Positions 13,790 to 28,962 of a DNA stretch of 64,000 nucleotides are shown one piece after another. Source of the DNA: Propionibacteriaceae bacterium. GTDB lineage: Bacteria > Actinomycetota > Actinomycetes > Propionibacteriales > Propionibacteriaceae. Position 1 is the first letter of the stretch. Each line of letters begins with the position of its first letter. The translations under genes were made by a program, and so were the position numbers. Location of the stretch: the NCBI GenBank assembly GCA_009780915.1, contig WQZD01000005.1:1-64000 (forward strand), in the 5' to 3' direction. The notes under the pieces are model-generated. The model was not told the DNA's origin and made no database searches. It worked only from the letters and a program-made list of their open reading frames with translations.

Positions 13790-16700
13790 ATGATTACAGA
13801 GAGTCTATTGACGCTAGCCGGCGTGCCACTCGGTTTGGTGACGAATCTGACCTCGGATCGAATCAACTCCTTCCTTGAGACACATGATTTCCTGGCCGAG
13901 GGCCTGGATGACATTTTCGTGGAGGCATTTCTCCGTGCGATAAAGCGCCACAAGAAGTCGCACGACAGTACTGCCCAATCCACGTTGGATAGTCTGGCTA
14001 AAAAAATCAAAAGGAACAAGAGCAGGTTCTTGAAGGTATTTTCGGGCCCCGAGACCATCCGCAGCCTCGGCAACGAGTCATATGTGACGGAGCGAGCTGA
14101 AATGCTCGCCCAGGAATACACAGTTGGCGACTGCGACCTCACGACCGTCCTGATCAAAGACTGCCTTCACGATTATCTGCACTGCTTCTTTGCGCACGTG
14201 TCCGAGCGGCAAGCGATGAGCATCATGATCACAGAGCTGTTCAAATGCAACGACTCTCTTGACGACGCTGCTGCCGTCTTGGCGCAGTTGAAGGCCACGA
14301 TTTCGGTGGACGACTTCTCGACCGTCCGAGACTCGGTCCTGGGTCATGTCACTCGCAATCACGAGGAGTACAAGCGAGCACTCGCCGACTACGATGACTA
14401 CGTCCAGGCACACTTCCGTGACCTGCCGCTCAGGGGCTATGCTCCGCGTATCGGTGGCGCCCTCGTAGCGATGAAGCTGGAAGACATTTATGTGCCTCTG
14501 CGACTCGATAAGGAGAAGGTGGAGCCGGGCTTCTCAATTAGGTATTCCCTTGAGGGGCCGGTGATGGATGAGGCCTTGGAGGTAGACACCTTGTTGAGCT
14601 ACAAGCGCACAGTCCTGTTGGGCAAGCCGGGGTCGGGCAAGTCCACCACTCTCAAGCACATGGCCGTCACAGCATCACAGCGACACGCGAACCCGGGGAC
14701 AAGCGGGCCGGTGCCAATTCTGTTCCGGGTCGCGGAATACGCAGAGCAGTACAAAGAAACACATGTGCCCCTCCATGAGTATCTGTGTGCTCAAGCGTTC
14801 GAATCGAAATTCCAGTGGCTCATTGACGTCACCCTGAGGTACTCGGACGCGCTGTTGTTGGTAGATGGTCTCGACGAAGTGACCGACAAGGCCTTGCGGC
14901 TTCAGGTGGTCGCCAAAATCGAGGACTTCCTCGACGCATACAGCAACTGCCAGTGCATTGTTTCATCTCGAATCATCGGCTATGACGAGGTTCGGCTCGG
15001 CCCGGGCTTCGCTCACTTTCAGTTGGATGACTTTTCGGCGTCACAAATCCGTATGTTCACCGAATGCTGGACATCCGCCATACATGAGGATTGGACCCAA
15101 GCTGAGATCGACCGCGAAGCCGCAGCCATGAACGCCGCGATATGCGCCCATGACTCGGTCTTCCGACTGGCAACGAACCCATTGTTGATGACCATCATCG
15201 CCATGATCTACTTCAGGGATATGAGGCTGCCCAACCGACGAGTAGCGCTGTACGAGTACAGCACCGAAACTTTCCTGGAGAACTGGGTACTCTTGCGGGT
15301 TGGCGATGAGTCCAAGCTCAAGTCGCGGGAGGACATCATTGAGATTCTGTCTCCGATCGCCTTCTACATGCACCGAGACAGGGCCGACAGCCAGATTCCG
15401 GAGAGCGAACTGCGGATCAAGTTTCAGGAACAATACCTGCGCATCCACACAAGAGCGAATGAAGACATCGCACGGCGGGAGACCAGCGAGTTCATCAAGT
15501 TCCTGAGGGAACAGGCCGGCTTTTTTTACGAGGTCGTTTCGCCGCCAGAAAGCGAGAACCTCTTCGGGTTCATGCACGGCACATTTGAAGAATACTTCGC
15601 TGGAATGTACGTCGCCAATGACTTCAACAACGGCGGGAATCTATGGCACACAGCGATTTACAAATCGCGATGGACTGAGGTGCTCCGTCTCGCGGCGGCT
15701 CACCTGAGTGTTCACATGGGCCGCGAGAAGACGACGGAGTTCATCCGAGCCATTATGGGCGTGCGGGACGACTTCCCCGAACTCGGTCGGCGCGAGATCC
15801 TGCTGTGCCGCATCTTCTCCGACGACATCACGGTCACCGACGACTGTCGACAGGACTTCATCCAGACGGTTGTCGACTTCTTCTCCCAAGACGTTTCTGG
15901 GCCTCTGCGGGACGGTCGAACCGTGAAGGAAGGCGTCGGCTTCGAGTCGCTCTTTCGGAGCAACGTTGGCAACGACTTCTGGCTAGCGTGCTTCGATAGG
16001 GCCCGAGCCCTTGACGCCAATAACGCGCTCGCAGGGCTGCTTTTGGACGTCATCGTCGACAGTGGCGCACCCCTAGACGAGAGCCGAATCAAGCTCGTAC
16101 GCCAGTACCTTGACGATATGCCGATGCCAGATCTGGCGCGGATCGTGGCTCGTCAGGGGTCGGTCCGCCTTCATGAAAACAATATGTCGAATCTATTGTA
16201 CGCCAGCTTCTGCGATCGGTTGCCCGAAGCGACGACAACCGAGTTTGAAGTCATTCTTCCAATTATGCGGGGCATCATCTTCCCCAAGACCCCTGCGCTC
16301 AAGTGGGTAATGATTTTTTCCCGTGGCCTGATGTCATCAATGGCGAACACCGCCAATTACAATCGCGTTAAAGCGCTCGTTCTTGGAGGTATTCTTGTCT
16401 ACTCATATACCCCCGAGGTTGAGAATGTGTTGCCTCACGGGTTTTTGACCAAGGATGACAACGCTTGGCTGCGTAGGGTTGATTATCATGAGGAGAGTGA
16501 TTTTCGCTACTCAGCTAGATACATTACATGTAGTGCGGTTCCTGGAAAGGACAACTGCCTCTGGGTAATACATGTCTCGCTAGACCACTTTGACCACCTC
16601 ATAGGTGTCACGGTATTTAATGCTACAACACGCGAAGAAGTGGTGATACCGCTAGATCCGCATCCATCCACATCGAACATCCCCGAGTTGGGGGGCCTTC

Positions 16701-17146
16701 CTCCCGATGTCCGGAAATGTGTTATCGCGCATCTCTTGGAGTTCGTCGACCCTGGGGAAGCCTCCCGGCATCTGTTCGACAGATTGCTCGCACTGGGTCT
16801 TGACGACATATCACCCTACTGGTGGTTGAAGTATATACGAGCACACGTTCACGAAGATGCCCGCTTAGAGCAGGCCTTCCTCATATCACGCCACTATTCT
16901 CGTTACAGCCCCGTTAACGTGCGCACAACGGCAGAATGCCTGGCAATGCCTTTCTCGTACAAGCCATCATCGCCGATGCAAGCCCTGATCCAACGAGCCC
17001 ATCAGACCCCGATTTCCCTGGATCTGTTGAAGCAGGTCCAGCAGTTCGCATTGATGGCCGATGAGCCGCTGAAAACCGCTGCCCTGTCTCTGCTGGGAGA
17101 ACTAGTAAATCAAGGAGATAACCCCGAGGAGTTTCGGTTCGAGTGA
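13790..17146 (+). CDS. Large NACHT-domain NTPase (bacterial NLR-like, probable antiphage protein)
   Basis: A 1,118-residue STAND-class protein. An N-terminal helical region of about 240 residues precedes a NACHT module with Walker A GKPGSGKST (278-286), Walker B LLLVDGLDEV (about 355-364) and a sensor-like SSRIIGYDEV. Behind it are a winged-helix-like segment (NPLLMTIIAMIYF, then FMHGTFEEYFAG) and a long helical C-terminus without recognised repeats. Bacterial NACHT proteins of this layout protect against phages, with the N-terminus as effector and the C-terminus as sensor. No N-terminal nuclease, TIR or membrane effector motif is visible, so the effector is unidentified. The gene stands alone between the glycan operon and a toxin-antitoxin remnant, and its base composition is less GC-rich than its neighbours. 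Confidence 0.85.
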   Translation: MITESLLTLAGVPLGLVTNLTSDRINSFLETHDFLAEGLDDIFVEAFLRAIKRHKKSHDSTAQSTLDSLAKKIKRNKSRFLKVFSGPETIRSLGNESYVTERAEMLAQEYTVGDCDLTTVLIKDCLHDYLHCFFAHVSERQAMSIMITELFKCNDSLDDAAAVLAQLKATISVDDFSTVRDSVLGHVTRNHEEYKRALADYDDYVQAHFRDLPLRGYAPRIGGALVAMKLEDIYVPLRLDKEKVEPGFSIRYSLEGPVMDEALEVDTLLSYKRTVLLGKPGSGKSTTLKHMAVTASQRHANPGTSGPVPILFRVAEYAEQYKETHVPLHEYLCAQAFESKFQWLIDVTLRYSDALLLVDGLDEVTDKALRLQVVAKIEDFLDAYSNCQCIVSSRIIGYDEVRLGPGFAHFQLDDFSASQIRMFTECWTSAIHEDWTQAEIDREAAAMNAAICAHDSVFRLATNPLLMTIIAMIYFRDMRLPNRRVALYEYSTETFLENWVLLRVGDESKLKSREDIIEILSPIAFYMHRDRADSQIPESELRIKFQEQYLRIHTRANEDIARRETSEFIKFLREQAGFFYEVVSPPESENLFGFMHGTFEEYFAGMYVANDFNNGGNLWHTAIYKSRWTEVLRLAAAHLSVHMGREKTTEFIRAIMGVRDDFPELGRREILLCRIFSDDITVTDDCRQDFIQTVVDFFSQDVSGPLRDGRTVKEGVGFESLFRSNVGNDFWLACFDRARALDANNALAGLLLDVIVDSGAPLDESRIKLVRQYLDDMPMPDLARIVARQGSVRLHENNMSNLLYASFCDRLPEATTTEFEVILPIMRGIIFPKTPALKWVMIFSRGLMSSMANTANYNRVKALVLGGILVYSYTPEVENVLPHGFLTKDDNAWLRRVDYHEESDFRYSARYITCSAVPGKDNCLWVIHVSLDHFDHLIGVTVFNATTREEVVIPLDPHPSTSNIPELGGLPPDVRKCVIAHLLEFVDPGEASRHLFDRLLALGLDDISPYWWLKYIRAHVHEDARLEQAFLISRHYSRYSPVNVRTTAECLAMPFSYKPSSPMQALIQRAHQTPISLDLLKQVQQFALMADEPLKTAALSLLGELVNQGDNPEEFRFE

Positions 17147-17253
17147 GTGTGACACCCCGTCATCCGCATTCCGCATACGTCACTCTCCGCCACTCCAGCC
17201 GTCCGTACCACACCGGCGTCAGACGAGTCCATGCCGTACCCTCAGCCCGTGCG

Positions 17254-17352
17254 TCAGCCGATCAGGCGCAGGAACTGGGCGGGAGTAAGCATCTGGGGAC
17301 GCTCGAGGTCGGCGTCGAGGAGGTCCTTGTCGCCGGTGACGATGGCGTCGGC
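17254..17352 (-). pseudogene. C-terminal remnant of a PIN-domain toxin
   Basis: Immediately after the antitoxin stop codon, and in the same frame, 32 codons encode ADAIVTGDKDLLDADLERPQ and then MLTPAQFLRLIG before a stop. IVTGDKDLL is the hallmark C-terminal motif of PIN_3-type VapC ribonuclease toxins. The start codon and roughly the first 100 residues, including the first catalytic Asp, are gone, so no toxin can be made. Confidence 0.8.
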
Positions 17353-17628
17353 TCACGCCCGCCGAGCCTCCCGGCGCATTTCGGTGACGTAGTCGGTCAC
17401 AGAATCCTCGTCCGGGAACCCGGCTTCCTCGGCCTTCCCGACCATCTCGGCCTGAAGCATACGCATGGCGTACAACGCGGGGTTCATCATCACCACTCGG
17501 TCGGTGTCCCAGATCAATGCGACCCTGTCGCCCGTCTCGACGGACAGCTTCTGACGGATGTCTCTAGGCAGCGTGATCTGGCCTTTCGCCATCACTTTCG
17601 CCACCTCGAGCAGCACGGGAGCACTCAT
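17353..17628 (-). CDS. AbrB/VapB-type antitoxin
   Basis: A 91-residue swapped-hairpin AbrB protein. VMAKGQITLPRDIRQKLSVE and the following GDRVALIWDTDRVVMMNP form the DNA-binding barrel; the acidic helical tail would bind the toxin. It has a strong ribosome-binding site (AGGAAGGAG) and a palindromic operator just upstream. Its cognate PIN toxin is reduced to a C-terminal scrap behind it. It may now act only as an autorepressor or neutralise related toxins elsewhere. Confidence 0.85.
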   Translation of the reverse strand: MSAPVLLEVAKVMAKGQITLPRDIRQKLSVETGDRVALIWDTDRVVMMNPALYAMRMLQAEMVGKAEEAGFPDEDSVTDYVTEMRREARRA

Positions 17629-17647
17629 CGCAGCTCCTTCCTATTAT

Positions 17648-17661
17648 CCCTACATATAGGG
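17648..17661 (-). promoter_or_regulatory. Palindromic operator of the antitoxin
   Basis: CCCTA-CATA-TAGGG, 20 bp upstream of the antitoxin start and overlapping an AT-rich -10-like stretch on the minus strand. The position and symmetry fit autoregulation by an AbrB-type dimer. Confidence 0.5.
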
Positions 17662-17815
17662 TAGCACCGGCTGTTCTCATCGAGTGGCAAGTGAACACAT
17701 GAGGAGCCGGAGCGGCGATCCAATGGCCCGAGGTACGGCGCAATACATGCGCTGACGCAGGTGGATGACGCAACTCGGCAACTCCGGTTCGCGAAGGTCC
17801 CCGCACAAGCCGCTG

Positions 17816-18646
17816 TCAGCCAGCACTAACGGCCGTGTATGGCTTGATCTGGTCTCCATCATCCACCATCTCAGGACTACGGAATGGAGGCGGTGATGGC
17901 GGAATGGGCATCTGGGACCTGGTGACCGCTACTTGGATTCTGTGGGCCTCTTTGACATCAGAACTGACCTGCGTCAAGGGCTGCAAGACACTGAACAAGT
18001 ACTCGACCTGATCCACAGTCAGAACAGCGTTTCCACTGGTGGCCCGGAGGGCCTTCGCCAGCCCGTCGCGTTTGACGGTCATCGCTGTGGGCGTATTGGC
18101 TGGCACCTTCGCCAGCGAGCATCGCACGCTGAAGACAACAATCGAGTGAATGATCGATGGGTCTAGCCAAGGCAGGAAGGCAGATAGGGCGGTGATATGC
18201 CCCTGGTTCTGACGAAGAGGGTTGTACAGCCGCTCCTTTCGGCGGCCGCCAGCCAGGACGACGGTCCACTGTCGGTCGTCCCGTGACCCGTACACTGCCC
18301 CGCTGTAGTTCTTTGACTCGATGACGTAGACACCGGATTGGTGGATGAAAACTAGGTCGATCTCTGAGGTTGTCCCGTCAGCCTTGGGCACATACAGGTT
18401 GTAGAGCACACGATGATAACCAGTGAGGCTCTCCACCTCGAGGCCAGTCAGGTACTCGCCGTACCGTCCTTTGTCAGCCACGACCGAACGATAAGACGAC
18501 CCAGTCAGTGAGCGGTACGCACTCCGGTTGTATCGGCGACGTCGGAGGAGTGCTGGAACTGCGGACACCACCAGGAGTAGAGCGAACACAGGGATGACGA
18601 TTGCCGCAAGCGTTCGCAACATCGGAAACATAAAGTCGTACGACAC
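17816..18646 (-). CDS. NERD-domain (nuclease-related) membrane protein
   Basis: A 276-residue protein with one N-terminal membrane helix (about residues 8-30), then a NERD domain: GRYGEYLTGLEVESL, NLYVPKADGTTSEIDLVFI and VYVIESKNYSGAVYGS. The E-x(n)-D..ESK pattern is the nuclease-like core of the family, related to PD-(D/E)XK nucleases. The C-terminal tail is Pro-rich. It stands alone between the two toxin-antitoxin remnants, which suits a defence role, but no function is established. Confidence 0.85.
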   Translation of the reverse strand: MSYDFMFPMLRTLAAIVIPVFALLLVVSAVPALLRRRRYNRSAYRSLTGSSYRSVVADKGRYGEYLTGLEVESLTGYHRVLYNLYVPKADGTTSEIDLVFIHQSGVYVIESKNYSGAVYGSRDDRQWTVVLAGGRRKERLYNPLRQNQGHITALSAFLPWLDPSIIHSIVVFSVRCSLAKVPANTPTAMTVKRDGLAKALRATSGNAVLTVDQVEYLFSVLQPLTQVSSDVKEAHRIQVAVTRSQMPIPPSPPPFRSPEMVDDGDQIKPYTAVSAG

Positions 18647-18782
18647 GAACTCAGCATACTGTGGCGCCCAACCATGCCACCGATTCGCGAGGTGTCATGG
18701 AATTCCCGATACCATACCCATGTGAGCCCCGGACGGGGCCGTCTTCAGGCGGCCGGCGCGTCGGGGCACTGCTTTGCCACAG

Positions 18783-18986
18783 CTATTCTGCCAGGCTGGC
18801 GGGTGCGTCCCATGGGGTGGTGTGATTCCCGGTGACAATGTCGCGGTAGGTTTTCAACACCCACAGGCGGCGCACGAGCGGCTCGCTGAAAGGACGTTTG
18901 GAGTACCAGGCGAGGTCGTACAGGTCGCGGGCACCCCGCACTCCTTGGTAGTGACGAGTCAGATAGCCCTCAGTGATTCGGCTCAT
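18783..18986 (-). pseudogene. AbiEii-type nucleotidyltransferase toxin with deleted core
   Basis: A 67-codon frame whose ATG overlaps the antitoxin stop (ATGA), as in intact AbiE operons. The first 15 residues (MSRITEGYLTRHYQG) look like a normal AbiEii N-terminus. The rest (ARDLYDLAWYSKRPFSEPLV, then RRLWVLKTYRDIV) looks like its C-terminal region. About 200 residues in between, containing the nucleotidyltransferase active site, are missing without loss of frame. The product is probably inactive as a toxin. Confidence 0.75.
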
Positions 18987-19801
18987 GCGCCCACACCTCC
19001 TTCCAAGTAGGGGTGTAAGCTCACGTCGGAGACTTTGGTCACGAGGTCGTAGCGTGCTCCGGCGGCACGTGCACCCCCGAACCATGCCGGTGTGGTGGGT
19101 GGATGAGCGGTCAGGAGTTCCTCGGCGACTGGGATGGCGCCAGCGATGCGGGCGAGATAGGCTGCTCGCTGCCACGCCGCTGCTGGCGTGTCGTGCAGGC
19201 AGGAGGCCATGGTGTCGGCGTCGAGTCGTGGGCCAACATCGGGCAGCCATTGAGCTAGCCCGGCGAGGTCCGTGTAACCCGAAGGTCGGATTGCGATCCC
19301 AGCGACCAGTCCGTCGAGAGTCCAGTGCGGCAGGCCGTCATGAACGTCACGGCCCTCCGGTGGTAGGTCAACAGTGACACAGCGCCATTCGTACATGGCC
19401 TTAGGAAGAGCAGACGTTTTCGGCAGAGCCACGACTTCGCGGTCTGGGACGTGCTGGCTCAAACCGAGCAGGCTGGCAGCTGATTCCATCGCGAGCACAC
19501 CTGGCCAGTCCGGGTTGACCGCTTGTTGCGCGCGGAACTCGATGAACCTGTCACCGGAGCCGTACGCGCCAGCACGCGCACCGGGATAGAACTCCCACAC
19601 CCCTTTGGTGCGCACCTTGCCGAGCCAGCCGAGCTCTTGCAGCCAGTAGACGAGCTTCGGCGCGTCCTGCACTCGGTGACACGCCCCGGTCTCGACCGCG
19701 ATCCGGGACAATTCAGGCATGGTGACGACGCGAGGCTGGTCAAGCTCCATCTGTTCGACCATGCCCGCAAGACGTTGCGGCAACGACCGCTGTGCTGTCA
19801 T
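18983..19801 (-). CDS. AbiEi-family type IV antitoxin
   Basis: A 272-residue antitoxin: an N-terminal winged helix (PRVVTMPELSRIAVETG, VYWLQELGWLGKVRTKGVWE) that binds its own promoter and a C-terminal AbiEi domain (RFIEFRAQQAVNPDWPGVLA, ESAASLLGLSQHVPDREVVA) that opposes the toxin. The ribosome-binding site AAGGTGG precedes the ATG at 19801. The gene looks intact, whereas the coupled AbiEii toxin has lost its catalytic core. In intact AbiE systems the pair aborts phage infection. Confidence 0.85.
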   Translation of the reverse strand: MTAQRSLPQRLAGMVEQMELDQPRVVTMPELSRIAVETGACHRVQDAPKLVYWLQELGWLGKVRTKGVWEFYPGARAGAYGSGDRFIEFRAQQAVNPDWPGVLAMESAASLLGLSQHVPDREVVALPKTSALPKAMYEWRCVTVDLPPEGRDVHDGLPHWTLDGLVAGIAIRPSGYTDLAGLAQWLPDVGPRLDADTMASCLHDTPAAAWQRAAYLARIAGAIPVAEELLTAHPPTTPAWFGGARAAGARYDLVTKVSDVSLHPYLEGGVGA

Positions 19802-19831: not shown

Positions 19832-20458
19832 GCACAGGTACAAATGACTATACCACCAAGCACGGCGAAGTCTCGGCATCGCAGACTTCGCCTTGACCAG
19901 GTAGTGCGGGGTGTTCCAGGCCAGGTCGATGGTACTCCGGATATCGGCCACCCGGAACTGGATCGTACGGACAGCCCCTTTTTCAGCAACTATGGAGTGA
20001 AGGCCCCCCCTCACCCATCTCACCCAGGCGCAGGATGACCCCGGACTCGTCCACCTGAATGGCGGTGGGACTCTACACCGGCCTGCCGATAGAACCCGTC
20101 AGTGAGGTCGCGGATACTGCAGCCCCCGTCTCAGCAGGATGCTCGGTATCCTGGCCCTGCTCTCGGTCGGGGCTACACCTCGATCTGCACCACGATCATG
20201 GGTGCGTCCAACCGGGGGGCTCGCCCGCCAGCGAGTCCCGCAGGGTCTGTCGTTCCTCGCGCCTGACAGGCCAGCACCTCGACAACCGGACGCTCGCTGG
20301 CCCCAAGAGAGCGCCACCACTCACCCATCCCCTCGCCAAATCCCTCAATATTCTCTATTGACAAGGAAATATACAGATCCATAGGATGGTACTACCTTTG
20401 AGGGCGAGGCACGAGGAACCCTGGGGCCTGGAAGAGCAAGAAGAGGAAAAACTCAGAC
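19832..20458. other. Region without a convincing gene, upstream of the bacteriocin cluster
   Basis: About 630 bp with only short frames. A minus-strand frame at 20173-20382 (69 codons, containing WWRSLGASERPVVEVLACQA) and one at 19802-20023 (containing IDLAWNTPHYLVKAKSAM) read like protein but lack ribosome-binding sites and match no family I recognise. They could be gene remnants. The second runs into the antitoxin promoter, so it is unlikely to be expressed as is. Confidence 0.4.
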
Positions 20459-20497
20459 AACGAGATCATTTCCCGCCAGGAAATGATGAGTCTCGTT
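20459..20497 (+). promoter_or_regulatory. Long imperfect hairpin upstream of the bacteriocin peptide gene
   Basis: The outer arms AACGAGA/TCTCGTT and inner arms TCATTTCC/GGAAATGA form a 15-bp stem with a 4-nt bulge (TGAG) on the 3' side and a 5-nt loop. It lies about 150 bp before the peptide start. No T-run follows, so it may be an operator or an mRNA control element rather than a terminator. Confidence 0.5.
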
Positions 20498-20644
20498 GTT
20501 ACGCCGGAGCGCGTACAACTAACCGCCTCAGCCCGAATGCAACGAGGAATGGCAGTGCGATCGGTATTCGATTGTCCAACGTCAGAAAACAATACTACCG
20601 AAGAATCTGCCATCCGCCAACACGATATGAAAGGAAGCCTTCCA

Positions 20645-20887
20645 ATGGAAGCAGGATACCTAATAGGAAAGTGGATCAAGAGCAAGCTGAGCACCATGGG
20701 CACCAATGGTGTCATTTCTTGGCTGGCAGGCAAGGTCGGACAGACAATCGCAAAGAAAATCGTCACCAAGGTTGTCACGGTCGGCGTGACAGCGGCGGCA
20801 GGCTATGTATCGGCCACCCTCGGCGCCAGTGGTTCAGTCGCAGGCCCGCTCGGCATCATCACCGGTGGTGCGGTCGGATGGCTGTGA
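20645..20887 (+). CDS. Putative circular or leaderless bacteriocin precursor peptide
   Basis: An 80-residue peptide with seven Lys, one acidic residue (Glu2) and no Cys. Residues 5-42 form a cationic amphipathic part (GYLIGKWIKSKL, WLAGKVGQTIAKKIVTK). Residues 43-80 are uncharged, Ala/Gly/Val-rich and end GGAVGWL. I chose the ATG at 20645 because AAAGGAAG lies 8 bp upstream; in-frame ATGs at 20627 and 20483 have no such site. The peptide is followed by membrane proteins, a SpoIIM-like protein and two ABC systems in the same order of functions as the enterocin AS-48 cluster. I infer a membrane-active bacteriocin, possibly head-to-tail circularised after removal of a very short leader. No close match to a known bacteriocin comes to mind. 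Confidence 0.65.
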   Translation: MEAGYLIGKWIKSKLSTMGTNGVISWLAGKVGQTIAKKIVTKVVTVGVTAAAGYVSATLGASGSVAGPLGIITGGAVGWL

Positions 20888-21003
20888 CCATCGACTGATG
20901 ACACCGCACACGGTCAGGGCAAGCGGGTTCACTCGCACAGGGAATCCTACACACAGTAGATGGTTCACACCCCGCTTGCCCCGACCCGAGGAAGGAGACA
21001 TCC

Positions 21004-21549
21004 GTGCACCCAGAACCCACATCTATTCCCACGACATCCACACTTCTCGAACCATCCAAGACGGGCTCACTGCTGGGAAAATTCGTTCCACTTCTCCTCA
21101 CCTTGTATGTCGCCAGTTTAGGTTGGATGGGGTATCTCTCAGCTGACGAAGGACTGGTGGCCTCTTTCGAAGGACCGAAGACGTGGCTCCTCGTGATCGG
21201 CCTGATGTGTTTCTACGCTCTCCCCACGATGGTGAGCCTGTGGCTCATTACTCTCCTGTTCACCGTGACATACAAACTTGCCTCCCCCGTCCCAATCAAT
21301 CCGCGTGCCGTACGAAGCCAAGGGAGGATCCTGCTCGTTGCCCTCTTCTTCTGCCACGCCACGGCATTCTACGTCCTCCATTTCACATCCACGATGTGGG
21401 GAGCGACTTCCTTCGTGGTGGGCCTTGCCGTTGTCACTATTGCAGTCGCCCGTGACAGGGTGCTCCAAGGGGCCAAGAGGTTCATCGCGCCTATCCCCCT
21501 CTACACATATGCGGTAGCAGACCTAGCGCTGGTCGCCGCGAGCACGTAG
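21004..21549 (+). CDS. Multi-pass membrane protein of the bacteriocin cluster
   Basis: A 181-residue protein with four or five predicted membrane helices (FVPLLLTLYVASLGWMGYL, WLLVIGLMCFYALPTMVSLW, ILLVALFFCHATAFYVLHF, TSFVVGLAVVTIAVA and a C-terminal segment). The GTG start is preceded by GAAGGAGAC. No family is recognised. It lies between the peptide gene and the SpoIIM-like gene, so a role in maturation or self-immunity is plausible but unproved. Confidence 0.7.
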   Translation: MHPEPTSIPTTSTLLEPSKTGSLLGKFVPLLLTLYVASLGWMGYLSADEGLVASFEGPKTWLLVIGLMCFYALPTMVSLWLITLLFTVTYKLASPVPINPRAVRSQGRILLVALFFCHATAFYVLHFTSTMWGATSFVVGLAVVTIAVARDRVLQGAKRFIAPIPLYTYAVADLALVAAST

Positions 21550-21557
21550 GAAGTCCC

Positions 21558-22142
21558 ATGACCCTTGCCACCATGCTCATTCCGAGACTGCCCACCCGAC
21601 ATCGCAACAGACTCACTGACATCATCGTTTTCCATGTGTGCCTGGCAGCCTTCTTCCTCATTATCGGGTTCCTCCTTCATGAGCTGATGATGAGTGTAAT
21701 CAACCCACATATGCCAGTCGAACTGTCGCCAACTACGGCTATCGGCATCTCATCCACACGAACACAACTGGTGGCGATTTGGCTCAATAACATTGCATTC
21801 TTTCTCATCGTCTCAGTATTGCCAATCGTGGGGTCCGCCATGGCAGCCGTCCAATTCATCCTGCTGGGAGGGTTGATCCACGGCATCCGGCACCTGCCAC
21901 TCTCAACTCAGACAGATTTGCTGTTCAGACATGCGGGCTTCGAGGTCGTGGCACTCCTGGCGGCAGTGACGATCAGCTACATCCTGCTCATGTCATTGAA
22001 TGAGTTTCTCCGAACCTCCGAGGATTCCGCCCGATCCACATTACTATCAGCCCTCTCCTCCACCATGCCGTTCTATGCGCTCATCTTCACTACGACCACT
22101 GTAGGAGCCATCCTGGAAGGATCTGCAGTTGTACAGCTTTGA
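21558..22142 (+). CDS. SpoIIM/DUF95-like membrane protein of the bacteriocin cluster
   Basis: A 194-residue membrane protein with about five helices. The segment FILLGGLIHGIRHLPLSTQT followed by FRHAGFEVVALLAAVTISY resembles the conserved lipid-facing H-x3-E region of the SpoIIM/DUF95 family. DUF95 proteins are near-universal in circular bacteriocin loci, where they act in maturation or export and immunity. It starts 8 bp after the previous stop and overlaps the ATPase gene by 14 bp. The family assignment is from motif appearance and needs a profile search. Confidence 0.65.
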   Translation: MTLATMLIPRLPTRHRNRLTDIIVFHVCLAAFFLIIGFLLHELMMSVINPHMPVELSPTTAIGISSTRTQLVAIWLNNIAFFLIVSVLPIVGSAMAAVQFILLGGLIHGIRHLPLSTQTDLLFRHAGFEVVALLAAVTISYILLMSLNEFLRTSEDSARSTLLSALSSTMPFYALIFTTTTVGAILEGSAVVQL

Positions 22143-22725
22143 CCAAGTTTCATTCAGATACCATGAACACATCTTCCGGGACTATACAGACGAGATCACC
22201 ACGGCCAAGATCGGGATCATCGGACGCAATGGAATTGGTAAGACAACGTTACTTCGTCTACTTGATCATCAACTCTTCCCCGAGAAAGGAGAGGTCCGTG
22301 TCGACGGCTCGACCTATCTCGTGGACTTCGACCTAGAGAAGTATGGTGCATTCCTCATCGAAGACCTCCTCGACGTCTGCTCGCACTTAGCATCCTTCGA
22401 CACATCCACATCAAGCACAGTAATGGCGTCTTTATCGCTCGACGGATATCGAAGAGTTCCAATCTCAGACTTATCGAAAGGTACCAAGAAGAAGATTTCT
22501 CTCCTTTTGGGCCTGTTGGCGACTCCGTCAGTTCTCCTCCTAGACGAACCGTTCGAGTCCTTAGACCCCGAGTCCAACGCCGCACTTGTCCACTACATAC
22601 AGCAGCGTGAGGGAGGTGTGGTCATTGTCAGCCATGAACACCACCTCCTCTCAAGCTGCGTCGGGGAGATCTTCGAGGTGACAGGCCAACGACTGGAGAA
22701 AGCTCATGACGACATTTTGGGTTAG
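22129..22725 (+). CDS. ABC transporter ATP-binding protein of the bacteriocin cluster
   Basis: A 198-residue stand-alone ATPase, shorter than the usual 220-240. It carries Walker A GRNGIGKTT, a variant signature LSKGTKKK in place of LSGGQ, Walker B VLLLDEPFESLD and the switch His in VIVSHEH. It starts with TTG (22129), supported by GGAAGG 8 bp upstream and by overlap with the preceding gene. It overlaps the next gene by 20 bp, so it very likely energises that membrane protein, forming a transporter for peptide export or self-protection as AS-48C/D does. Confidence 0.85.
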   Translation: MYSFDQVSFRYHEHIFRDYTDEITTAKIGIIGRNGIGKTTLLRLLDHQLFPEKGEVRVDGSTYLVDFDLEKYGAFLIEDLLDVCSHLASFDTSTSSTVMASLSLDGYRRVPISDLSKGTKKKISLLLGLLATPSVLLLDEPFESLDPESNAALVHYIQQREGGVVIVSHEHHLLSSCVGEIFEVTGQRLEKAHDDILG

Positions 22726-24019
22726 CTGGGCCAGGATACACGTGCGTCGCGTTAGCCATGACAGGGCCAGAGAAGCGGGCTTGGGCTGCGCGTTTGGCGC
22801 ACTCATGGTCTTCGCGTCCACCTTGAATGCAGCCTGGTCCATGTTCGTTCTCGCGTTGTATTTCTACCTCATCCAAGTTGTCGTGATGACGACCAATAAG
22901 GTATTTATGTCGTTTGCCGACTTCATGCGCATCGGGTTTCGCCGGCCCACAGCTGGATATAAGGTCGCTTACATCATCCACTACACGCTTCGGGATAAAT
23001 ACATCGCAAATACGTGTGCGCTCACCGTCTCGTGCTCAGGGCTGATCGTTACCAACAAGGCAGAATGGTCTGTGTTCATCTTCTGTCTCTATGCCGCCAA
23101 CCTCATGGTGATGCCGAGCCACGTCCACCTCAGTCATATGCTCACAGCACGTGCGCTGCACATGTATCTCATAGCCCTCCTACTGCCATTTCCGCTCGTG
23201 GCCTGGCGTCTCTTTCACGGCCATGACTTCAGCCCAACAACAGTTCTCATGTGTGCCACCGGATGGATGATCGCCGCAGGTGGGTACTCCGCAGCCATCG
23301 ACCGGGCTTCCTTGCGCATGAGGGCCCATAATCGTGGATCATGGAAGAGGCGTAGGCTCTTGCTTCCAATCAAAGGCCTCTCCATATTCCTCTTCAAGGA
23401 CCATCTCCTCTTTCAGGGAATCCTCATCCAGAATCTCATCATGGGCGTTGCCCTATTCGTCCTCCTCGCACAGGGAACACCACGAGAATTTCTCCCCTCG
23501 TGCGCGCTCTTCGCCATCGCGACAAGCAGCTTGCTCATGTCCAGAAAGGACAAGAAGTATCGCCTCCTGCATGACGATTCGCTCTTTCGTGAGCAGGCCC
23601 TGCCTCGCGACCAACTCCTCCTGAGAAGGAGGAAACTCCTCACGCTTGCGAGTGGCACCCTCGTTCAGTTACTGGCCTATTGTGTGGTTGTGTCGATGGT
23701 CAGTGCATTCCACTGGCGGCAAATCCCCCTGGTCACCGGAATCCTCATCACCACGCTCGTCATCGATGCCTCTCTCCTGCATCACAGCTCCCCGACCGCC
23801 CGCTGGCTAAGGACATCATTGAAGTATTGCTTGAGCGCACTCTTCCTGGTCGTCAGCTACACAAGCACATCTCATCTGAGCATATGGATTTTCTGCGCCG
23901 TTCTAGCCGGAGCATATGGCCCCTTCGCCATCCGCGACTTGATCCCCTCCCACCTAAACACCCCGAAAACAAGCAGGCCGCTCTCGCCGAAAACCCCTGA
24001 CTTCAGTCGATCGTCATAG
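22706..24019 (+). CDS. Large polytopic membrane protein (ABC permease-like) of the bacteriocin cluster
   Basis: A 437-residue protein with about ten predicted membrane helices and a basic cytoplasmic loop near the middle (RMRAHNRGSWKRRRLLLP). No enzyme motif is visible. Its position directly after the ATPase, and the translational overlap, make it the likely membrane partner. In size and place it resembles the large multi-spanning protein (AS-48B type) that is required for production of circular bacteriocins. The sequence alone does not distinguish permease from maturation enzyme. Confidence 0.7.
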   Translation: MTTFWVSWARIHVRRVSHDRAREAGLGCAFGALMVFASTLNAAWSMFVLALYFYLIQVVVMTTNKVFMSFADFMRIGFRRPTAGYKVAYIIHYTLRDKYIANTCALTVSCSGLIVTNKAEWSVFIFCLYAANLMVMPSHVHLSHMLTARALHMYLIALLLPFPLVAWRLFHGHDFSPTTVLMCATGWMIAAGGYSAAIDRASLRMRAHNRGSWKRRRLLLPIKGLSIFLFKDHLLFQGILIQNLIMGVALFVLLAQGTPREFLPSCALFAIATSSLLMSRKDKKYRLLHDDSLFREQALPRDQLLLRRRKLLTLASGTLVQLLAYCVVVSMVSAFHWRQIPLVTGILITTLVIDASLLHHSSPTARWLRTSLKYCLSALFLVVSYTSTSHLSIWIFCAVLAGAYGPFAIRDLIPSHLNTPKTSRPLSPKTPDFSRSS

Positions 24020-24030
24020 AAAGGACACTC

Positions 24031-24372
24031 ATGACCATGGATAACGCCATCCGCCCACTATTAACCCTAACCAAGGACGGGGATGCCATCTATGCGCTCA
24101 CCCGAAAGAGACAATCTTCGGGATGCCGACGATTCTTCGACCTAGTCCTCGACTTCTTCTTCCTGGCTGGAGGCACAGACGCAGTGGCAGATTCCCTGGC
24201 AGGAACCTGGTACCTCCTCGCTTCCGACTCTGACGGCCGTCTCGTGAAGCTCCATCATGGGGTCATTAATGAGACCACCGTAATCCCCCAGTGGGATGCG
24301 AAATGGAAGGAGTCATTCTCCAAGGTGTCACTCGACGGGTTCGACTACAAAAGACTTCATCGGTTGGTGTGA
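24031..24372 (+). CDS. Hypothetical protein of the bacteriocin cluster
   Basis: A 113-residue protein with one possible amphipathic or membrane-dipping segment (FFDLVLDFFFLAGGTDAVAD) and a soluble C-terminal part rich in Lys and aromatic residues. The ribosome-binding site GAAAGGA precedes ATG 24031; a second ATG is at 24037. No family is recognised. It is the shortest non-lipoprotein in the cluster and therefore one candidate for a self-immunity protein. Confidence 0.6.
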   Translation: MTMDNAIRPLLTLTKDGDAIYALTRKRQSSGCRRFFDLVLDFFFLAGGTDAVADSLAGTWYLLASDSDGRLVKLHHGVINETTVIPQWDAKWKESFSKVSLDGFDYKRLHRLV

Positions 24373-24376
24373 GGAG

Positions 24377-24865
24377 ATGACACGTATATCACGACCCACC
24401 TCCGTCATCACCTGGTTCTTCGCGTGCCTCGTCCTCTTGTCTGGATGCTCGCTGCCGCCACTGAACCCCGACTCAACAGCCAACGTTGACACGCCCATAC
24501 TCGAACTGATCACACAGACAAGGCAGCTCTATGAATCGGGGCGATACCAGGGGTGGTTTATTGTGACCTCCAGTGATGCGGGAATGGAGTCGCTGAGCCT
24601 ACAGGACTTCTCTCCCCGCGAGCATCCCGTGCCCTCGCACCAAGAAGTCGTGAGCTACGGCCATGTCACCATCGGAGAACTGTCGGAATTGAGCATTGAA
24701 GTATGGGTCCAAGAAGGACCGGGGATGTACTACTCGGCGACAGTAGATCCCCAAAACTCACAGATCAGATCAACCGATGGCGAGTGGTTCATGACAGGGG
24801 ATCCCACTGACTATGTCACCACGCAGGTCGACCTCATGGTGACGTTCCTGTCGAGCCTGGCATGA
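24377..24865 (+). CDS. Lipoprotein of the bacteriocin cluster
   Basis: A 162-residue lipoprotein with a signal peptide and lipobox LLSGC (starting at ATG 24377, 4 bp after the previous stop). The mature part is acidic and soluble (ITQTRQLYESGRYQGWFIVT, SIEVWVQEGPGMYYSATVD). No family is recognised. Surface lipoproteins protect producer cells in several bacteriocin systems, so it is another immunity candidate. It is followed after 24 bp by the membrane-fusion-type protein. Confidence 0.72.
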   Translation: MTRISRPTSVITWFFACLVLLSGCSLPPLNPDSTANVDTPILELITQTRQLYESGRYQGWFIVTSSDAGMESLSLQDFSPREHPVPSHQEVVSYGHVTIGELSELSIEVWVQEGPGMYYSATVDPQNSQIRSTDGEWFMTGDPTDYVTTQVDLMVTFLSSLA

Positions 24866-24889
24866 ACATCGGAAGAAAGGACCCCCACC

Positions 24890-26182
24890 ATGACTTCTCC
24901 CTCCATACACGACCTGCCCTATACCACTAACGGACGCCGGGCGCTGGCCACGCGCATCGCCATCGCCGCAATCGTCATGGGGGTGATGGCAGTGCTGGCC
25001 GGCTGCGGGCCGGCAGCCGGCCCGACCATTGAGACGATCACACTGGCTCACGACCAGTACTCCTTCACGGGAAACCTGGTTCCCGAGGCCAGCCATCTCG
25101 TCGACGTGCGCCCCGAGGACCTCGCCCACACCGATGGAGCGTGGGTCTCGATGGGCGACGAGCTGCGCGCCCAGACGCCCGCGGTCCTCAGGGCCCTCAC
25201 TGACCTCCAGAGCAGGATCGAACATCATCTCGCCGAGCAGGCACGGGCGTCACGAGCAGCGAAGGCCGTGGGGAAACAGGCGTTCTCCTACTCGTGGCCC
25301 TTGGACACGGCCCCCGGATCGGGTGAGATCCACACCATCGGGCACGCCATCCAGTCCGCCCTGATCGCCGATGCCCGGGCCGCCTCCGCCGCCTCGCGTC
25401 AGACTCGCGACAACCAGGCCGACCTTGCGTCCCTTCACGCCCAACTGGGCGCCGCCACGGCGTGCCCCACGTCGCCTGGAGGGGACGTGGCCGGTACACC
25501 CGACCCATGCACGGATGCTGCGACCCTGGAGAGCCTCAAGCAGCAGATCATCGATGTGGAGAGGGCGACCAGAGCGGTTGAGGCGGATCAGTACTTCGCA
25601 CGACAGGAGACGGACAACCAGTTGGCCACTCTGTTCGGCCAACTGGTCGAGGCTTATGCGCAGGTGATCGAGGCCGACTCTGCCTCCCGGGACTCCTACC
25701 ACGTCCCCTCTCCGGCCGACGGACGCGTCGAGGTCCGTGGGCACGAAGTCTGGGTCTCCTCGTCCGCCTTCACCCTCGTCTACACCGCCACACAAGCGCA
25801 GGCCGACAGCCTGACCGCGGCGTCCGGGCTGCGCGTTGAACAGGGGGGTACGACGCTGGCCGACGCCCAACTCCGTTCTACGACGTTCAGCGCCGAGGCC
25901 ACGAGCGACCTGAAAGCCCCCAAATACACCATGACCTTCTCGCTGACACCGATCCAGTCCGGCCTCGATGTCCGCCCTCAGAGCACAGCCACGTTGACGT
26001 ACAGCTCGGACACGTTGGTCATCCCATCCGCTTTCCTGGGCACCGACGGCGCCACCCAGTACGTCATCCAGGACGGTCGCAGGGTGAGCGTCACGGCGTC
26101 CAAGGATCTGACCGGACAATGGGTCGTCCGTCCTGGGGTCCTCCAAGCAGGTGCCGAGATCGAGAGGATCGGCGGTAGATGA
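24890..26182 (+). CDS. HlyD/MacA-like membrane-fusion protein of the bacteriocin ABC exporter
   Basis: A 430-residue lipoprotein-type or signal-anchored protein (hydrophobic segment about residues 22-44 ending VLAGC). A long helical region with coiled-coil character follows (SRIEHHLAEQARASRAAKAV; LESLKQQIIDVERATRAVEA), then beta-barrel-like segments (SPADGRVEVRGHEVWVSS, YTMTFSLTPIQSGL) and a C-terminal strand domain (VSVTASKDLTGQWVVRPGVL). This is the layout of periplasmic adaptor proteins in MacAB-type systems and AS-48F. The gene overlaps the ATPase gene by 4 bp. Confidence 0.8.
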   Translation: MTSPSIHDLPYTTNGRRALATRIAIAAIVMGVMAVLAGCGPAAGPTIETITLAHDQYSFTGNLVPEASHLVDVRPEDLAHTDGAWVSMGDELRAQTPAVLRALTDLQSRIEHHLAEQARASRAAKAVGKQAFSYSWPLDTAPGSGEIHTIGHAIQSALIADARAASAASRQTRDNQADLASLHAQLGAATACPTSPGGDVAGTPDPCTDAATLESLKQQIIDVERATRAVEADQYFARQETDNQLATLFGQLVEAYAQVIEADSASRDSYHVPSPADGRVEVRGHEVWVSSSAFTLVYTATQAQADSLTAASGLRVEQGGTTLADAQLRSTTFSAEATSDLKAPKYTMTFSLTPIQSGLDVRPQSTATLTYSSDTLVIPSAFLGTDGATQYVIQDGRRVSVTASKDLTGQWVVRPGVLQAGAEIERIGGR

Positions 26183-26847
26183 TACGCCTGGCAGACGTCG
26201 GCAAGGTGTACCGGGGCCGTAACTTCGAGGTCACAGCCCTGGACGGGATATCCCTCGACATCCCACCCGGGCAATTCGTCTCCCTCGTCGGGAAGAGCGG
26301 ATCGGGGAAGTCCTCGTTGCTGAAGATCCTCGGGTTGGTCGACTTCGATCACTCCGGCCGGTACTGGCTCGACGGTTCGACCTATCACGGCGCCCGCGAC
26401 ACGGAGGTGGCAAGGGCCCGAAAGTGCATCGGCTATGTCTTCCAGGACTTCCGGCTCATCGGGCGGCACACCATCTGGAAGAACCTCCAGATGGCGGCGG
26501 TCATTCGCGAAGGACACGTCGATGTGGAGGAGATCCGTGCCTGCCTCGACCGCGTGGACCTCGCTGACAAGGCGTTGAGCTACCCTGATGAGCTCAGCGG
26601 CGGACAAAAGCAGCGGGCTGCTGTGGGCAGGGCGATCGTCGGCCGTCCGCGCCTGCTCATCGCCGACGAGCCGACGGGTTCCCTGGACCAAGCCACCGCC
26701 ACACAGATCATGTCACTCCTAACAGACCTCCACACAGAGCTTGGATGCACCCTCGTCCTCGTGACGCACGACATGGACATCGCCATGCAGGCCGAGCGGG
26801 TGGTCGAACTACGGCAAGGGAGGATCCACGATGACTTTCTTCATTAG
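26179..26847 (+). CDS. MacB/LolD-type ABC transporter ATP-binding protein
   Basis: A 222-residue ATPase with Walker A GKSGSGKSS, Q-loop GYVFQDFRL, signature LSGGQKQR, Walker B LLIADEPTGSLD and switch LVTHDMD. It belongs to the LolD/FtsE/MacB group. It overlaps the upstream adaptor gene by 4 bp and the downstream FtsX permease by 17 bp, so the three form a single MacAB-like exporter. In the AS-48 locus the equivalent EFGH system adds immunity or export. Confidence 0.92.
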   Translation: MIRLADVGKVYRGRNFEVTALDGISLDIPPGQFVSLVGKSGSGKSSLLKILGLVDFDHSGRYWLDGSTYHGARDTEVARARKCIGYVFQDFRLIGRHTIWKNLQMAAVIREGHVDVEEIRACLDRVDLADKALSYPDELSGGQKQRAAVGRAIVGRPRLLIADEPTGSLDQATATQIMSLLTDLHTELGCTLVLVTHDMDIAMQAERVVELRQGRIHDDFLH

Positions 26848-27958
26848 GAACTGTGTGGCGGGTCTGTGGTTCAACCGTCTTCGCTCGACCCTGACCGGAA
26901 TCGGCGTCCTGGTCGGCGTCGCCTCCGTCGTGCTCATCATGGCCCTGTCCGACGCCCTGATCGCCACCATTGACGACGAGGATGTGACCTCGTGCCAGAT
27001 CGCCCTGATGAGCAGCGCCGAGGCTGATGCCGACGTGCTCGACGCCATGAGCAGCCCCGACATCGTCGCACGGCTGCAGGGTGTCGCTCAGCGCACAGAT
27101 GTGGCATCCTTCGCCCCCGAGGCACAGCGACACATCGTCGAGGTGTCATTGCCCACGGGCGTGAGCATCGGATCGATGGTCGTCAACTTCACCGACAGCG
27201 TCCCCGTGATCGCCGGTGAGCCGTTCACCCGCGCCACGGGCGATGTCGTGATCATGCGCCCCAATCCAGATTTCTCGAATGTGACCATTGGCGACCAGAT
27301 CGTCATCAACGGGCAGTTCTTCCAGGTGATCGGCACGACCGACAGCCATGGGATGACGCCTGACACCAAGCTCTTCCTGCCCGAACGCATGTCCTCCCTG
27401 GTGGACGTCGACCAGCTCTCGACCACCGGCACCCACCTGCTCATCGGCCAACAGGGCTTCCCGTTCTCCGAGGTGCGCCAATCGGTCATCGACCAACTCA
27501 ATGATGGTATCGACCCTGACATGAAGTTCTTCGACATGAGCGCGGAGATGGCATCCGGGCTGCGTGACGCCCTGGGCACGATCCAGATGGTCCTGGGCGC
27601 TATCGCGTCGGTCTCGTTGGCCGTGGCCGCCCTCAACATCGTCAACACCATGTATATCGCGAGCCTGGAACGGGTGGACGAGATCGCAGTGTTGAAATCC
27701 ATGGGAATGACCCGTGTCCAGGTGATGGCGCTCTTCCTCCTAGAGTCTGTCCTCCTCGTCACGATCTTCGCCCTCCTTGGCGCCCTGATCGGCAACCTCT
27801 GCGCCGCATTGATCCTGACCTACGCGGACATCCCCATGGCGTTCTCCTGGATGGCGCTGGCCACCCTCGTCCCGGTCATCGTCCTCGTCGGCGCTGGAGG
27901 AGGGTTCTACCCCGCCCATCGAGCCGCCAAGATCGACCCCGTGAGACTGCTGCGCTGA
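26831..27958 (+). CDS. FtsX/MacB-type ABC permease
   Basis: A 375-residue permease with the MacB layout: an N-terminal helix (LTGIGVLVGVASVVLIMAL), a large extracellular MacB_PCD domain (about residues 40-250) and three C-terminal helices with the FtsX motif ASLERVDEIAVLKSMGMTRV. The final KIDPVRLLR is typical of the family. It is the membrane partner of the adjacent ATPase and adaptor, and the last gene of the bacteriocin cluster. Confidence 0.92.
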   Translation: MTFFIRNCVAGLWFNRLRSTLTGIGVLVGVASVVLIMALSDALIATIDDEDVTSCQIALMSSAEADADVLDAMSSPDIVARLQGVAQRTDVASFAPEAQRHIVEVSLPTGVSIGSMVVNFTDSVPVIAGEPFTRATGDVVIMRPNPDFSNVTIGDQIVINGQFFQVIGTTDSHGMTPDTKLFLPERMSSLVDVDQLSTTGTHLLIGQQGFPFSEVRQSVIDQLNDGIDPDMKFFDMSAEMASGLRDALGTIQMVLGAIASVSLAVAALNIVNTMYIASLERVDEIAVLKSMGMTRVQVMALFLLESVLLVTIFALLGALIGNLCAALILTYADIPMAFSWMALATLVPVIVLVGAGGGFYPAHRAAKIDPVRLLR

Positions 27959-27964
27959 TGCTCA

Positions 27965-28742
27965 TCACTGGGAGGCGCCCACCTGGTCGATACTCGACAG
28001 GCTCGCTGGCGCGAGACGAGGGACGGCGATGAGCCCAGCCAGGATGAACAGGATCGAGAGCACGATCGTCCCCTCACGCCCAAACTGTCATGCCCAAACT
28101 GTCATGCCCAAACACCAGCGTTGAGCAGAACCCAGCCAGAACAGCCGTCAAAGGATCAACTCCCCATGTGAGCGTTCTCACGAGGCCTGAGACGCCCGAC
28201 ACACGACCAGCAGGCACGAGCGACTGTCGAGCGCTCCTGGCGATGACTAAGGAAATGATCGCACCCGAGCCGATCAGTGCGAGCCCGAGCGACAGAATGC
28301 ACGCACCACCCACCATCGGCAACCGCCCAGCCGATGCGATCAAAGTGAAACCGACCGCTGCCCCGATATAGGCAGCGATGAGCGTGGTGCGAGCGCCGAG
28401 ACGGACCCCCATCATCCTGACCAGAAGCCGCGCCAGTGTGCCGAGCGCCACAGCAGGAACCGAGAGGAGACCGAACATCCATACCGGCATGCCGATTGCC
28501 TCGAGAGCGTAAGGCGCCAACAAGGTGGTGACTAAGGCGATAGCCACATTGAAGAGAGCGCCAGCGACAGCCATACGCACATGAATGCGATGGCTGGCCC
28601 ATACCGAGAAAATCTCTCGGATATCCCCCACGTGCGCCGCGACCTGTTGAAGCAGTGGTCTTCTGGCGGATCGCGGCTCGCGCGTCTCCTTCGGTGAGTT
28701 GATGTCGGCTGGCCTGACAAAGACGGCTAGTGCGACAGACTC
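27965..28742 (-). pseudogene. MFS transporter remnant, 5' half missing and frameshifted
   Basis: Codons from about 28742 encode the C-terminal half of a major-facilitator permease (AVAGALFNVAIALVTTLL, PVWMFGLLSVPAVALGTLA, GGACILSLGLALIGSG). The N-terminal six helices are absent; the frame upstream of 28742 is not MFS-like. At 28085-28112 two extra copies of a 14-bp unit shift the frame, giving a premature stop at 28074. Past the insertion the original frame resumes (FGREGTIVLSILFILAGLIA) and runs to a stop at 27965-27967. Two independent lesions make this a decayed gene. Confidence 0.85.
28071..28112. repeat. 14-bp tandem duplication within the MFS remnant
   Basis: Two exact copies of CTGTCATGCCCAAA (28085-28098 and 28099-28112) adjoin the related original CTCACGCCCAAA (to 28084). 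Removing both copies (28 bp) restores the MFS frame, so the repeat is the frameshifting lesion. Confidence 0.9.
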
Positions 28743-28962
28743 ATGACATATCTCAGGAGAAACCACCAGCCTCCCCGCCAAGTGAGCCACCCCCAGGGGC
28801 ACGAACTGTACCCCGCCATCCACGGGGGCACGAACCGTGCATTTCACCCTGAAAACGGACAGTTCGCACCCCCGGCCACATCCAAGGCCTCGCACCACAG
28901 GCCACATCGAGGACCCTGTGCCCCCTACACCGGCCACCGCCTACGCAGGCGAGGACACACGA

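Follow-up and report, generated by a model that had tools for sequence, protein, structure and literature searches.

A possible natural circular permutation of an AS-48-type bacteriocin gene in an actinobacterial operon

Must a bacteriocin that the cell closes into a ring be encoded from the same starting point as every known member of its class? This question is raised by an operon at 20645-27958 on the + strand of the window analysed here, a stretch of 64,000 nucleotides (contig WQZD01000005.1, positions 1 to 64,000, C5 of its assembly) from a Propionibacteriaceae bacterium whose genome comprises 2.78 Mb and is 99% complete. The operon is headed by a gene for an 80-residue peptide (20645-20887, +), a putative bacteriocin precursor which, according to profile comparisons, ring tests and substitution rates, may represent a circularly permuted AS-48-type ring. 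Judging from the sequence, there is an even chance that a bacteriocin of the circular class (AS-48/uberolysin/gassericin) is produced and exported by the operon, from a gene permuted relative to all known members. That the permutation is a natural circular one, in which gene and cell respectively open and close the ring at another bond, within the helix 3/4 loop, is slightly less probable than that.

The peptide gene and its ring-wise similarity

The gene runs from an ATG at 20645 through 80 codons to a stop at 20887. As an earlier note on this DNA had described, its product lacks Cys, carries seven Lys and one acidic residue (Glu) and has an uncharged second half, no charge being present beyond residue 45; it is also free of Arg, ends in GGAVGWL and is preceded by a ribosome-binding site (AAAGGAAG, 20630-20637, +) 7 nt upstream of Met1. 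Farther upstream lies a weak promoter-like site, TTGACA-18-TAGGAT (20358-20387, +), for which a consensus scan found one instance with 0.5 expected. Homologues are provided by a second genome of the genus (G004), where two tandem peptides, each of exactly 80 residues and about one-third identical to the window peptide, belong to a sister operon, and a copy 78% identical to the window peptide lies elsewhere (G004:C43, 1-470), 230 nt from a contig end. This copy adjoins an inverted repeat (GTTCATTAGAGAG/CTCTCTAATGAAC). Because a Shine-Dalgarno-like site stands directly ahead of Met1 in all four homologues, two of which contain no in-frame start farther upstream, Met1 is on sequence grounds the true start of the peptide, without a long N-terminal extension. 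Comparison with the 78% identical copy gives nonsynonymous (dN) and synonymous (dS) rates of 0.15 and 1.5, a dN/dS of about 0.10 that reflects purifying selection and from which the gene is judged to be a real coding gene.

A search of 177,635 distinct PDB sequences with a profile of the four peptides returned one match, AS-48, at an E-value of 9.9 that is weak alone, and this match is composed of two stretches in swapped order, with residues 33-53 of the peptide corresponding to residues 9-29 of AS-48 and residues 7-26 to residues 51-70. So that matches may cross the ring-closing point, an alignment of ten circular bacteriocins from PDB and genome records was repeated in tandem to give a doubled profile; six more group i sequences, confined to the sets labelled 'all', left the picture unchanged. 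No peptide stands out against linear hidden Markov models (HMMs) of the ten database circular bacteriocins. Against the doubled HMM, each of the four peptides crosses the junction in a common register, with W26-L27 on W70-M1 of AS-48, and the score is reached by 3 of 4000 shuffles for the window peptide, by none of 4000 for the 78% identical copy, and by 53 and 40 of 4000 for the tandem pair. In profile-profile comparison the score rises from 17.6 for the linear reference to 22.2 for the doubled ring, a value attained by none of 940 column shuffles and by none of 300 shuffles that keep the heptads; the highest score among 94 decoy windows of membrane proteins is 11.6, and the reversed ring gives 10.9. 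The reference ring is best cut between helices 3 and 4. The register is reproduced by group ii rings as an independent set (score 20.0, 0 of 200 shuffles), and it recurs in all subsets tested, so that homology to the ring is found regardless of start point. A relation of the peptide to group i and group ii circular bacteriocins is thereby largely supported at the sequence level.

In this register, residues 7-26 (20663-20722, +) would be the counterpart of AS-48 helices 4-5, with G19 and W26 in the places of G63 and W70, an assignment drawn from the PDB search, the doubled profiles and the helices of AlphaFold2 (AF2) models. The codons of W26-L27 (20720-20725, +) would encode in one piece what is the ring-closing bond W70-M1 in AS-48, as seen with the doubled profiles, and residues 27-50 (20723-20794, +) would correspond to the AS-48 N-terminus and helix 1, extending into helix 2, according to the PDB search and the doubled and group ii profiles. 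Residues 51-80 (20795-20884, +), hydrophobic and marked in the homologue alignment by an invariant AGP-x-G and G-x-L end, are expected to form helices 2-3. Known genes encode a leader followed by helices 1-2-3-4-5, with helix 5 being linked by the host to the beginning of the ring (W70-M1 in AS-48). The encoded order here would instead be helix 4-5-1-2-3: Trp26-Leu27, an ordinary bond inside the chain, would take the place of the usual joining point, and the new termini would fall within the helix 3/4 loop. Enterocin AS-48 likewise has a Gly seven residues before its Trp and cationic helices 4-5, but it follows the order 1-2-3-4-5 in 70 residues behind a long leader, in contrast to the 80 residues without a long leader proposed here.

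Leader or permutation: the first residues

The match at W26-L27 is on its own no proof of permutation, since the core encoded by group ii genes begins only three residues ahead of it. In a rival explanation, which is rather unlikely and fares best among the alternatives, the peptide is a conventional circular bacteriocin in which residues 1-21 to 1-26 form a leader and a core of 54-59 residues in normal order is circularised after a cut following Asn21 (group ii-like, ...TAN then IYW) or between Trp26 and Leu27. Group ii members (gassericin A, acidocin B, plantacyclin B21AG) share IxWxAxxxG, the helix 1 region and a hydrophobic tail with the peptide and start at IYW after a leader of 26-33 residues ending in Asn, a point whose equivalent is internal here; they align at the start of such a core (ISWLAGKVG with IYWIADQFG), and residues 24-80 are 57 long, compared with 58 in group ii. 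Taken by itself, the helix 1 stretch gives a linear match to group i (17.5, 0 of 200 shuffles), and leaders of 2-48 residues are known, as is an Asn site in group ii (PMC8659200). On the other hand, the position of the Asn varies (21 versus 25), nothing in residues 48-80 aligns with the group ii C-terminus, and residues 1-21 carry a ring-like signal in two or three of the four peptides while resembling no reference leader. When only these 21 residues are shuffled, the group i score is reached in 35 of 4000 cases for the window peptide and 16 of 4000 for its copy, and the group ii score in 12, 90, 28 and 588 of 3000 (12 for the window, 28 for the first tandem peptide); by comparison, leave-one-out treatment of five real precursors aligns 0-3 leader residues. 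A Gly stands seven residues before the ring C-terminus in 10 of 10 database group i rings, and all four peptides have its equivalent, the invariant Gly19, seven before position 26.

Selection also speaks to this point. Leaders are usually the most variable part of a precursor (PMC8659200), and residues 1-27 are unlike a typical leader in being under the strongest constraint within the gene, with a dN/dS of 0.04 that compares with 0.06 in the next part and 0.19 in residues 51-80. AF2 models of two paralogues place helices at 2-18, 20-31 and 33-57/62, interrupted at G19 and G32, and a single helix runs through W26-L27; in AS-48 itself, helix 5 continues across the closure site. Taken with the start at Met1, these features suggest that residues 1-21 look ring-like rather than leader-like, and the evidence on this segment favours permutation over a leader by roughly two or three to one, not decisively.

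Several observations weigh against a permuted ring. Sequence matches of database-wide significance are absent, and neither PF09221 nor the NCBIfam models match any of the four peptides at an E-value of 10, although recognition by such models in conventional order is a database criterion that lies outside the definition of the class. The earlier note had not recognised the peptide from any characterised family; this holds for PF09221 and NCBIfam, and gives way to the relation with groups i and ii once doubled profiles are used. The C-terminal 30 residues align with no reference. One control misbehaves, as the near-identical pair of window peptide and copy scores 23.1 against the reversed ring profile. 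Residues 1-21 resemble helices 4-5 to a modest degree (p about 0.004-0.2, depending on the peptide): shuffling them alone against group i leaves the tandem pair weak, with 826 and 343 of 4000 shuffles reaching the score, and residues 1-18 alone are without significance in three of the four peptides. The halves of the peptide, scored singly by HMM, are too short for power. The AF2 models have modest pLDDT values (predicted local distance difference test) of 70-76, Foldseek finds no PDB match for the model and VIA-align no match either (results that are uninformative), and a ring of 76-80 residues would exceed the 58-71 residues of the references used.

Should the permutation be true, for which the odds are slightly below even, maturation would not be tied to the Trp-Leu helix junction of known members. 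The precursor would then be devoid of a leader apart from Met1 or, at most, a few residues, and Leu80 would be joined head to tail to Met1/Glu2 or a residue up to Tyr5. A ring precursor of this leaderless kind is plausible because in circularin A a Met alone suffices as leader, the recognition signal probably lying in the core (PMC10028692). The invariant ends, M-x-A-G-Y at the N-terminus and G-x-L at the C-terminus, are among the most conserved positions of the four homologues and may act as the closing signal.

The same conserved ends, which would be expected of a ligation site, weigh against a second alternative, considered improbable, by which the product is permuted yet remains a linear leaderless bacteriocin of saposin-like fold beginning with formyl-Met or Met, closure being unneeded now that the old junction is encoded in one piece. 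The gene structure without a leader would suit this explanation, as would the two tandem peptides of the sister operon: the same fold, often with several peptides, is found in leaderless bacteriocins (PMC6131525). However, the leaderless bacteriocins aureocin A53, lacticin Q and enterocin 7, which are leader-free, of saposin-like fold and sometimes made of several peptides, are shorter, lack a SpoIIM protein and show no sequence match to the peptide, which also matches no Pfam or NCBIfam bacteriocin family. The present cluster is not free of SpoIIM, and a SpoIIM-type gene with a D-type ATPase marks the circular class; since leaderless clusters contain no such DUF95 protein (PMC11580447), the gene by analogy argues for the circular class. 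Finally, it is very improbable that the gene, standing by chance ahead of an ATP-binding cassette (ABC) operon, encodes no bacteriocin but a holin, signal peptide or similar small hydrophobic membrane protein, for the borderline PHROG holin match (phrog_9284, E 0.0074, two of four peptides), in line with a possibility raised in the earlier note, is set against ABC/SpoIIM neighbours with no adjoining phage lysis genes among those examined, tight SpoIIM/ATPase/exporter linkage in two operons, tandem copies and ring similarity. The phrog_9284 match of the peptide family (20645-20884) perhaps reflects mere shared helical hairpin character.

The operon, its relatives and its surroundings

Circular-bacteriocin clusters contain a precursor, a SpoIIM (DUF95) protein and a transporter ATPase (PMC8659200, PMC8534725), and these three are present here. 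The nine genes downstream of the peptide gene (21004-27958) all lie on the + strand and overlap or are tightly spaced, in accordance with the earlier note. Direct Pfam and NCBIfam scans of the peptide, the membrane proteins and the small proteins mostly gave no match. The first gene (21004-21549) encodes a membrane protein of 181 residues without a family match, 33% identical to its homologue in the sister operon. It is followed by a membrane protein of 194 residues (21558-22142) that had been proposed to be SpoIIM/DUF95-like, with failure of the DUF95 profile as the refuting outcome. Taken literally, the Pfam model PF01944 does fail on the window protein, but not once relatives are brought in: the G004 homologue alone matches PF01944 at E 7.7e-5, slightly under the curated cut-off, and profile-profile comparison (hhalign) of the protein and its homologues with SpoIIM of seven circular-bacteriocin loci (AS-48, Listeria, Anoxybacillus, Paenibacillus, aureocyclicin and two Rubrobacter-like) gives 95.6% and E 1.2e-8 with three sequences, or 93.2% with two only, spanning nearly the full length. 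Controls stay at 0.1% for the reversed profile and at or below 1% for unrelated membrane families, and by these comparisons the protein is classed as SpoIIM-like.

The next gene, with a TTG start (22129-22725), encodes an ABC ATPase recognised by Pfam that resembles AS-48 D-type ATPases (99.8%), and is followed by a multi-pass membrane protein of 437 residues (22706-24019) in the position of AS-48B. No relation of the latter to AS-48B-type proteins was detected, the reference B-type proteins mostly failing to match each other as well. A 113-residue protein without a family match (24031-24372) has a weak 82-residue counterpart in the sister operon, from which the lipoprotein encoded next (24377-24865, lipobox LSGC) is absent. 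The adaptor-ATPase-FtsX exporter described in the earlier note stands for two of its three members: the ATPase (26179-26847, AS-48G/MacB type) and the permease (26831-27958, AS-48H/MacB type, also matched by Pfam) score 100% and 99.6% against an AS-48 EFGH-type reference set, while the lipoprotein in the adaptor position (24890-26182, lipobox LAGC) is assigned by position only, with 1.8% against reference adaptors, no Pfam match and no detectable similarity to AS-48 or other bacteriocin HlyD-/F-type adaptors.

The AS-48-like character first proposed for the cluster is upheld by the SpoIIM-like protein with its neighbouring ATPase, by the second ATPase with the FtsX permease, and by the relation of the peptide to circular bacteriocins. 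Enterocin AS-48 (plasmid pPD1) has the same kinds of genes, namely peptide, SpoIIM, D-type ATPase, large membrane protein, small proteins and an ATPase + FtsX exporter, whereas its large membrane protein and adaptor are not recognisably related to those of the present, actinobacterial operon. Roles in maturation, export or immunity of circular bacteriocins are attributed to SpoIIM proteins (PMC5695211, PMC7132975), and the SpoIIM-like protein, the first ATPase and the 437-residue protein may mature the peptide, carry out its primary export and provide a part of immunity. A role suggested for AS-48 EFGH might fall to the lipoprotein/ATPase/FtsX set, a second line of immunity in which the peptide is expelled, and the folded product would permeabilise membranes of competing Gram-positive bacteria.

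The operon is more than a chance assembly, because it is kept in order as a whole in the second genome of the genus, with 28-65% protein identity and without the lipoprotein. A third genome (G016:C53, 2921-5302) holds a SpoIIM-like gene missing its 5' part, the ATPase and the 437-residue protein, with neither peptide nor exporter found, and is perhaps an orphan immunity locus or a remnant of this system. No further relatives were found of the peptide in 392 genomes of the order, of the SpoIIM-like protein in 294 genomes of the order or of the 437-residue protein in 296 genomes of the phylum. Across 84,980 species, pattern scanning returned nothing for the peptide and only the sister operon for the SpoIIM-like protein; tblastn of the peptides and the 437-residue protein against plasmids and scans of viral contigs also gave nothing. 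To judge by these searches, the system is either rare or diverging too fast for the methods used. Low-scoring peptide matches within large open reading frames of other actinobacteria were judged to be chance, and two weak matches to small ones (G003:C75, G012:C235) were rejected, having no operon partners. Rubrobacter-like actinobacteria (G480, G404, G502) carry conventional-order clusters for circular bacteriocins of the AS-48/NKR-5-3B type that exceed the PF09221 cut-off and can serve as references from within the actinobacteria.

Upstream lies a defence-like neighbourhood (13790-19801) with a NACHT NTPase (13790-17146, +), a MazE-type antitoxin (17353-17628, -), a NERD-domain protein (17816-18646, -) and an AbiEi antitoxin (18983-19801, -) followed by an AbiEii toxin (18783-18986); the AbiE pair looks broken, because just the C-terminal part of the toxin is present. 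Directly after the operon stands a short gene for a major facilitator superfamily transporter (28074-28937, -), probably truncated, which matches only the C-terminal half of MFS_1.

What a natural permutant would mean

No natural permutation of circular bacteriocins was found in the open-access literature, only laboratory permutants of AS-48 (PMC4284732, PMC5695211). In these artificial variants (Biochimie 2011, as cited in PMC4284732 and PMC5695211), the ring is opened elsewhere and expressed as a linear protein prone to aggregation, in contrast to the order encountered here, which appears natural and resides in its own operon. This fold type tolerates natural permutation, as evidenced by the swaposins of plant aspartic proteases (PMC3320104), a permuted saposin-type fold that differs in being a disulfide-bonded eukaryotic insert, neither ring nor bacteriocin. 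The cutting and closing of circular bacteriocins is an unsolved problem, for which no ligase has been identified (PMC8659200). In this regard, a natural permutant, if true, would separate the functional needs of the ring from the recognition needs of the closing machinery, since the old joining point would now be ordinary sequence and the new one would lie in a loop. The failure of precursor-based and PF09221 searches to find such genes would be explained as well, and a search near SpoIIM genes with doubled (ring) profiles suggests itself.

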